Translations under genes and position numbers: made by a program
Shown: positions 16,037 through 28,407 of the stretch, one piece after another
How the letters are laid out: every line of letters begins with the position of its first letter
How positions within the stretch are numbered: position 1 is the stretch's first letter
NCBI GenBank assembly: GCA_021205455.1
Contig: JAJPXL010000071.1
Location: forward strand, 1 to 36,707
Length of the DNA stretch: 36,707 nucleotides
Direction: 5' to 3'
Source: Clostridiales bacterium
GTDB taxonomy: Bacteria > Bacillota > Clostridia > Oscillospirales > Oscillospiraceae
Notes under the pieces: model-generated
What the model was told of the DNA's origin: nothing
The model's input: the letters and a program-made list of their open reading frames with translations, nothing else
Databases searched by the model: none

Positions 16037-16459
16037 TTATGCGGTGCCCTTCAAATCGTCCTCAGGCGTCCACGAGGAGATGGTGGGAGCCTTGTACTTC
16101 CTCCTGGCGCGCTGGTCCGGGTACTCCAGCGTAATGCGGAGCTTCTGGACGGTGATACCCTTCGCGTCCACCAGGAGCTTCAGCTCGGCCCAGTTGCCGG
16201 GCAGCTCCATGTTCCCGGCGGACACGACGCACACCAGGCGCTTGGCCCTGCCCTTGCCGGAGCTCAGCCGCATCTCATAGCTCGCGGGGACCAGCCTCCT
16301 GAGGAGCTTGTCGTTCCGCTTCAGGTACCGCTGCACAGCGTACTTTGCGGTGGAAACGCTCAGAGGCTCCGGTACGTCTCTCGTATCGAGACGGAACTCC
16401 TTTGCGAAGGAAAGCTCGTAGCCGATGGAGCAGAGTTTGTTGTTTTCGTAGATGTCCAT
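16037..16459 (-). CDS. Hypothetical protein (140 residues) behind an attenuator-like leader
   Basis: The ATG at 16459 has GGAGG 8 bases upstream; a longer frame starting at 16510 would begin within the leader hairpins and lacks a ribosome site. The protein starts MDIYENNKLCSIGYELSFAK. It is soluble and basic in the middle (YAVQRYLKRNDKLLRRLVPA, then RLSSGKGRAKRLVCVVSAGN). The C-terminal half alternates strand-like segments (AELKLLVDAKGITVQKLRIT) and ends in SSWTPEDDLKGTA. I recognise no family. It is expressed from a consensus promoter through a leader with two terminator-like hairpins, divergent from the trp operon. No partner gene lies on the same strand nearby. The regulated leader suggests a conditional role, but none can be named. 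Confidence 0.72.
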   Translation of the reverse strand: MDIYENNKLCSIGYELSFAKEFRLDTRDVPEPLSVSTAKYAVQRYLKRNDKLLRRLVPASYEMRLSSGKGRAKRLVCVVSAGNMELPGNWAELKLLVDAKGITVQKLRITLEYPDQRARRKYKAPTISSWTPEDDLKGTA

Positions 16460-16506
16460 GTCACATACCTCCAAAAAAATCAGTGGGTGGTTTGATTGGA
16501 GCAAGT

Positions 16507-16613
16507 GCAAAAGAAACGCACTATGCCCTGATGGTGGGTCAACAGGGCATAGTGCGAAGCAAAAAGAGAAACACTATCCCCACTGACTCATCCATTCAAT
16601 AGCAATAGTGTTT
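16507..16613 (-). promoter_or_regulatory. Leader with two tandem terminator-like hairpins (candidate attenuator)
   Basis: In transcript order, the first hairpin pairs 16613-16605 with 16577-16569 (AAACACTAT/ATAGTGTTT, 9 bp) and is followed by CTCTTTTTGC. The second pairs 16556-16543 with 16530-16517 (14 bp, perfect) and is followed by TTTCTTTTGC. The 3' arm of the first (GGGGATAGTG) can also pair with the 5' arm of the second (CACTATGCCC) at 9 of 10 positions. Four segments with 1:2, 3:4 and alternative 2:3 pairing form the classic attenuator layout. The sensed signal is unknown. Confidence 0.6.
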
Positions 16614-16637
16614 TGCGTTCCTCCTGGAACTGTGTAT

Positions 16638-16666
16638 ATCATAACACAGGGCGCGCCGTTTGTCAA
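16638..16666 (-). promoter_or_regulatory. Promoter of the 140-residue unknown gene
   Basis: On the minus strand TTGACA (16666-16661) and TATGAT (16643-16638) are 17 bases apart. Transcription starts about 170 bases before the start codon, leaving room for the hairpin leader. Confidence 0.85.
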
Positions 16667-16814: not shown

Positions 16815-17095
16815 ATTTGAATATCGTCCATGAAACCGTTGAGGTGGAAGTAAAGGCGCGAGAGGTACTCACAGAGAGTCGGCAGGGCTGGGAAGCCGGC
16901 AGTGGCTGCGCGTCACAATGGTCCACTGAGGGCGCGGGGAACGGAGCGGGAACGCTCTCAGTATGCCGCGACGTTCGGCTCGCGTCAGCAGCCGGAGATA
17001 TGCTGGTATCTCAAAAGTGCGTGGGTCTCCCACGAAGCAAGGTGGCACCGCGGAGCAATCCGTCCTTGAGAAGTTCTTCTCATGGGCGGTTTTTT
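16815..17095 (+). ncRNA. T-box leader of the trp operon (tryptophan)
   Basis: The T-box core AAGGTGGCACCGCGG lies at 17039-17053. It is followed by the terminator stem CCGTCC (17060-17065) with GGGCGG (17084-17089), an inner TGAGAAG/CTTCTCA helix, and a T6 run at 17090-17095. Stem I features include AGAGAG (16873-16878) and the distal GGGCTGGGAAGCC. A hairpin GTGGG/CCCAC (17021-17033) precedes the core. The likely specifier is TGG at 16919-16921 (in ACAATGGTCC), matching Trp. Uncharged tRNA-Trp would favour the antiterminator and so operon expression. The specifier choice also relies on the genes downstream. Confidence 0.92.
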
Positions 17096-28140: not shown

Positions 28141-28407
28141 GCAAAAAGAAAACGCCCTGAACTCTCGGTTCAGGGCGAAAACGGGCGCATTTTCCGCGGT
28201 ACCACCTGAATTTCCCCACCCGGCGGGCGAGGACACTCAACTCCCGGTAACGGGGGACACCGCCGCAGCCTAGTGGGCAGGTTTGCCGTTCAGCCGCGGA
28301 ACTCCGGGGCGACCTTTCTGCGCACCTCCGCCAGGGCTTACACCAGCCGCCCTGTCTCTTCGCCTTTGGAAGCGCATACTTCTCCCCATCAACGTTTTCC
28401 AATATAC
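28141..28407 (-). ncRNA. T-box leader of valS (valine)
   Basis: On the minus strand the T-box core TCAGGTGGTACCGCGGA spans 28209-28193. A terminator follows: GTTCAGGGCG/CGCCCTGAAC-type arms (28177-28168 with 28162-28153), a 5-base loop, then TTTTCTTTTT (28152-28143). Upstream is a stem I region with AGAGAC and the distal loop GGGCGGCTGGTGTAAGCCC. Uncharged tRNA-Val should promote readthrough. I could not place the Val specifier codon with confidence (GTT and GTC candidates exist near 28320). Confidence 0.93.

Follow-up and report, generated by a model that had tools for sequence, protein, structure and literature searches.

The minus strand of the window (the whole stretch of 36,707 nucleotides that was analysed, contig JAJPXL010000071.1 of a Clostridiales bacterium) raises the question of how a small gene is controlled when terminator-like hairpins stand between its promoter and its start codon. 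An earlier note on this DNA had proposed a conditional RNA switch, a four-segment attenuator in which the hairpins 1:2 (T1) and 3:4 (T2) compete with a 2:3 pairing. The features concerned are the following.

16666-16638, minus strand: near-consensus sigma-70 promoter, with TTGACA (16666-16661), a 17-bp spacer and TATGAT (16643-16638); 11/12 matches
near 16631, minus strand: predicted transcription start
16630-16617, minus strand: 5'-terminal stem-loop GTTCC-AGGA-GGAAC, where the RNA is predicted to begin
16614-16561, minus strand: T1, terminator-like hairpin (16614-16569, AAACACTATT...GGATAGTGTTT) with U tail TTTCTCTTTTT to 16561
16556-16509, minus strand: T2, terminator-like hairpin with a 14-bp outer stem (16556-16517, CGCACTATGCCCTG...CAGGGCATAGTGCG) and U tail TTTCTTTT to 16509
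16472-16468, minus strand: Shine-Dalgarno sequence GGAGG
16459-16037, minus strand: 140-residue gene, ATG at 16459, stop codon at 16039-16037
16830-17070, plus strand: T-box leader of the trp operon, the divergent neighbour, outside the element (RF00230, 80.7 bits, gathering score 93, E = 1.3e-17)

The near-consensus promoter and the two successive U-tailed hairpins ahead of the gene are thus present as the note had described them, and the folded leader (-68.3 kcal/mol, z = -4.96) was matched in stability by 0/200 shuffled sequences. A simple terminator scan flagged neither T1 nor T2; the hairpins probably have loops and bulges beyond its limits. The short transcripts, which had been expected to end at 16557 and 16507, are instead predicted to have their 3' ends within the U tracts, at about 16565-16561 and 16511-16509. 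When Rfam covariance models were run against the minus strand, the leader gave nothing but chance microRNA matches far below gathering scores, in agreement with the claim that it follows no riboswitch or T-box pattern. Only two Rfam matches in the window are real, both of them T-boxes: the divergent trp leader and a second one at 28178-28401 on the minus strand (108 bits), which lies ahead of a gene reading as valyl-tRNA synthetase. The explanation that we prefer, with a probability of roughly 55%, is a leader controlled by read-through, in which repeated terminators are acted on by a trans-acting factor and there is no alternative-pairing switch.

Comparison with relatives supports this explanation in several respects. 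First, the architecture is constant: the order promoter, 5' stem-loop, terminator(s) and gene was found in all 11 distinct loci compared, the window included, and TTGACA or a near-TTGACA sequence lies upstream of every homologue. Homologous genes lacking the hairpins, which were to count against the earlier proposal, did not turn up; at least one terminator precedes the gene in 11/11 loci. The 5' stem-loop is likewise present in 11/11 loci, each time exceeding about 97-100% of shuffles in stability, with a clade-specific stem (GTTCC/GGAAC, GTTCT/AGGAC or GACACAG/CTGTGTC) and loops such as AGGA, AAGA, GGAG and others. T1 with its tail is the best preserved part of the leader, and a U tract follows it in all alignable loci, while loops and single-stranded parts vary among loci. 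Second, the leader and the gene travel together. Related genes are rare: 9/32 genomes of the genus carry one, and outside it two cases were found, L025 from a different genus and L026 from a different family. They were absent from the other sampled genomes of the class and from further genomes related to these two outliers. A covariance model of the 5' stem-loop and T1 gave strong matches only in the nine gene-carrying genomes of the genus (E 3e-14 to 5e-6), against a best E of 0.07 in the remaining 23/32; because these loci served to build the model, its matches there arise by construction and the absence elsewhere is the informative part. Those weak matches in genomes without the gene that were read proved to be ordinary terminators at the 3' ends of genes. 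Leader and gene strictly co-occur in the 32 genomes of the genus. Third, the number of terminators is not fixed, with two in eight loci, three in G006 (L009/L010), and one each in L025 and L026. The three hairpins of G006 share TTCGG...CCGGGCATRGTGTTT or parts thereof, as duplication would produce, and in at least some lineages the terminators appear to be duplicated copies of one another. The gene itself appears to stand alone, and its neighbours, named from reading translations and not by family search, vary by clade: the window, L003 and L004 have the trp leader and a sugar-kinase-like gene, L006-L008 a downstream transcription-regulator-like gene, and L025 rimP/nusA-like and cysS-like genes.

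The proposed four-segment switch can be judged from the evolution of its helices, which we counted on hand-registered arms in a small sample of three clades. The note had looked to compensating base changes for support, and these are evident for 3:4, where both sides have changed at 6/9 pairs and only 1/81 cells is unpaired, but hardly for 2:3, where both-sided changes occur at only two pairs, 10/90 cells are unpaired and the same central mismatch is shared throughout the window's clade (5/5 loci). The 1:2 stem is kept in 10/10 alignable loci (3/70 cells unpaired) with few changes. It is true that the 2:3 complementarity of 9/10 in the window is as had been stated, that it amounts to 8-9/10 in each of the nine loci having at least two terminators, and that the predicted duplexes are of -10.9 to -16.7 kcal/mol. 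However, this complementarity exists because both hairpins share the stem CACTAT/ATAGTG. When arms from the same species were compared with arms mixed between clades, the mean energies were -24.1 versus -13.7 kcal/mol for 3:4, -16.1 versus -13.1 kcal/mol for 1:2 and -17.3 versus -14.4 kcal/mol for 2:3, so that the own-species gain is about 10 kcal/mol for 3:4 and about 3 for 2:3; T1 arms of L006-L008 even pair with T2 arms of the window's clade about as well as with their own, or better. The gain for 2:3 is non-zero, yet a pair of similar hairpins is expected to show as much even if 2:3 pairing is not selected. Moreover, L025 and L026 have one terminator, so a 2:3 helix is impossible there. 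The first hairpin of a four-segment attenuator is no terminator. Here T1 carries its own conserved U tract, and a polymerase that reaches segment 3 has already escaped from T1, so that 2:3 pairing could affect T2 only. For these reasons we abandon the 1:2 / 2:3 / 3:4 arrangement, and an attenuator with a competing 2:3 helix appears very improbable. Of the broader claim that the gene is governed by a conditional RNA switch, the conserved leader with premature terminators stands and the alternative pairing does not.

Other ways of controlling the terminators within the leader were also considered. No antiterminator strand was found upstream of T1, where duplex energies were no better than with shuffled upstream sequence. 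Sequestration of the Shine-Dalgarno sequence looked convincing in single folds, but the pairing was as in shuffles in 10/10 loci tested, and pairing of GGAGG with an upstream GCTCC was not above chance. An 8-nt match across the window's leader (TCAGTGGG / CCCACTGA) is absent in relatives. Attenuation by a ribosome translating a leader peptide, for example one sensing an antibiotic or tryptophan, would suit a gene that adjoins the trp operon in the window, and a tiny frame with a Trp codon does occur within T1 of the window (MSQWG), L002 (MHQWE), L003 (MSQWG) and L004 (MNQWE). However, a Shine-Dalgarno sequence at a sensible distance is missing, the frame overlaps the paired apical stem, it is absent from L005 and L010, and the frames of L007 and L008 are unrelated. 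The peptide MSQWG was accordingly rejected as not conserved, the leaders of the relatives share no short frame that has a ribosome site, and we regard this mechanism as the least probable of those weighed here.

As judged from comparison of the loci, the layout is conserved, the T2 stem is under selection and the leader is linked to the gene. In the read-through explanation, the strong and apparently constitutive promoter would give high initiation, most polymerases would stop at the terminators and leave RNAs of about 70 and about 120 nt, and the small basic protein would be made only when the terminators are read through. Read-through would be conditional, set by a trans-acting factor and not by alternative pairing within the leader. 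It could be an elongation factor; alternatively, an RNA-binding protein could work via the 5' stem-loop or the terminator hairpins. The 5' stem-loop could also merely stabilise the RNA. A trans-acting RNA-binding factor seems the most economical form of control because the leader and the gene always occur together and the product is small and basic, and antitermination of the CspD kind provides a precedent; perhaps the basic gene product is itself this factor. A further step, which we consider rather unlikely, is that the protein belongs to a new family of small antiterminators that sense their own level, with the repeated terminators as the sensor; it would bind the 5' stem-loop or the hairpins and set the read-through that its own gene receives, and perhaps that of other genes.

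The main rival is a fixed brake without regulation, in which a strong promoter and strong terminators merely hold expression at a steady low level and the copies drift in number. This is unlikely in our judgement, though less so than the other alternatives: the terminator number does range from one to three, and a sensor, a leader peptide, an Rfam family and an antiterminator were all looked for and none was found. Nevertheless, the same brake could be had more simply with a weak promoter, and the 5' stem-loop and the U-tailed T1 are preserved in several genomic neighbourhoods. The preservation of T1 and its tail, and the typical small-RNA shape of a 5' stem-loop followed by a terminator, could also mean that the promoter mainly serves to make the short terminated RNA, which would be a small regulatory RNA sharing this promoter with the downstream gene. 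Against this, variation is seen in the loops and unpaired stretches, which is where a seed for target binding would be expected, the RNA is never found without the gene in the 32 genomes, and the second and third terminators would be superfluous; the small-RNA explanation is improbable.

The gene is real, as judged from the purifying selection on it (dN/dS 0.16-0.42 between relatives). The window protein is basic (pI 9.66), and 11/11 proteins of the loci compared, itself included, are basic (pI 9.5-10.4); such a pI supports RNA binding only weakly. As the note had stated, it belongs to no recognised family: no Pfam or NCBIfam family matched at cut-off and PHROGs gave nothing, and we conclude that this is an undescribed family of small basic proteins. 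Its structure was poorly predicted without an alignment (pLDDT 61.7) and with moderate confidence from the 11 sequences (pLDDT 76.7); a fold search with the latter model gave no PDB or viral match, and no RNA-binding relative was found by it. Several identities were considered and rejected. A paralogue of ribosomal protein L16 was suggested by weak profile matches far below the cut-offs (TIGR01164, E = 2e-4, 21.5 versus 76.85 bits; Pfam, E = 0.003, 17.8 versus 27.9 bits), but the weak match occurs in at most 2/11 relatives and L16 is not among the best fold matches, so it is probably due to chance. An IS200/IS605-type transposase with its hairpins is not indicated, as the HUH motif is absent and the window protein contains no histidine. 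A phage or plasmid gene is not indicated either: searches of viral contigs, phages and plasmids gave no match, and the T1 pattern was not found in viral contigs.

Compared with known systems, the leader has both familiar and distinct features. Like other premature-terminator (5' UTR) leaders, including the rimP-leader, which has tandem terminators in some Gammaproteobacteria (PMC2965389), it carries intrinsic terminators, sometimes in tandem, between its own promoter and the start codon, and each stem with its U tract is placed and conserved as in that class. It differs from these leaders in the gene controlled, in the 5'-terminal stem-loop, in having one to three terminator copies and in that no anti-terminator structure was found. 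The dfn and mln leaders on which LoaP acts also combine a small RNA hairpin with intrinsic terminators, and LoaP control requires a hairpin with a UNCG loop and the NusG paralogue LoaP (PMC12691694). Here LoaP control was rejected: the 5' loop is not UNCG, the draft genome (98.9% complete) has one NusG-domain protein only, and the target is one small gene and not a polyketide cluster. The cold-shock protein CspD, and also CspA, CspC and CspE, are small RNA-binding proteins that lower intrinsic termination (PMC9765468), and they illustrate how a small basic product could exert control, although autoregulation is here only proposed and no relation in sequence or fold to the window protein was found. 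With a trp-type four-segment attenuator the leader shares a terminator upstream of the gene and arms able to pair across hairpins, but it differs in the absent leader peptide, in a first hairpin that is a terminator, and in a 2:3 helix that hardly co-evolves and is missing in some homologues. The conserved premature-terminator leader is thus of a known kind, and what is undescribed is the small protein family behind it.

The importance of the locus depends on which explanation holds. If read-through is regulated, this would be an attenuation leader that has no alternative structure and that acquires and loses terminator copies while control of the gene is kept, and it would offer a natural test case in Clostridia for trans-acting control of intrinsic termination. 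The undescribed family could be one of RNA-binding regulators. Should the leader be no more than a fixed brake, it would be a minor curiosity. The importance is modest, except if the product turns out to be an antiterminator.

Individual loci gave some minor observations. In L010, three successive similar terminator-like hairpins stand ahead of one gene at about 1150-1320, and contigs C32 and C33 of G006 (L009/L010) are identical over the 3.3 kb compared, which reflects either a duplication or an assembly artefact. In L025, on the minus strand, GGTCATTTCC before T1 is the exact complement of GGAAATGACC at the ribosome site; the 10-bp helix would enclose the terminator and is absent from other loci. 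In the leader of L026, some 280 bases ahead of the gene, the 5' stem-loop has a loop, GGCCCCGC, whose perfect complement, GCGGGGCC, follows the terminator; the two could form a long-range pair, which was seen in this locus only.
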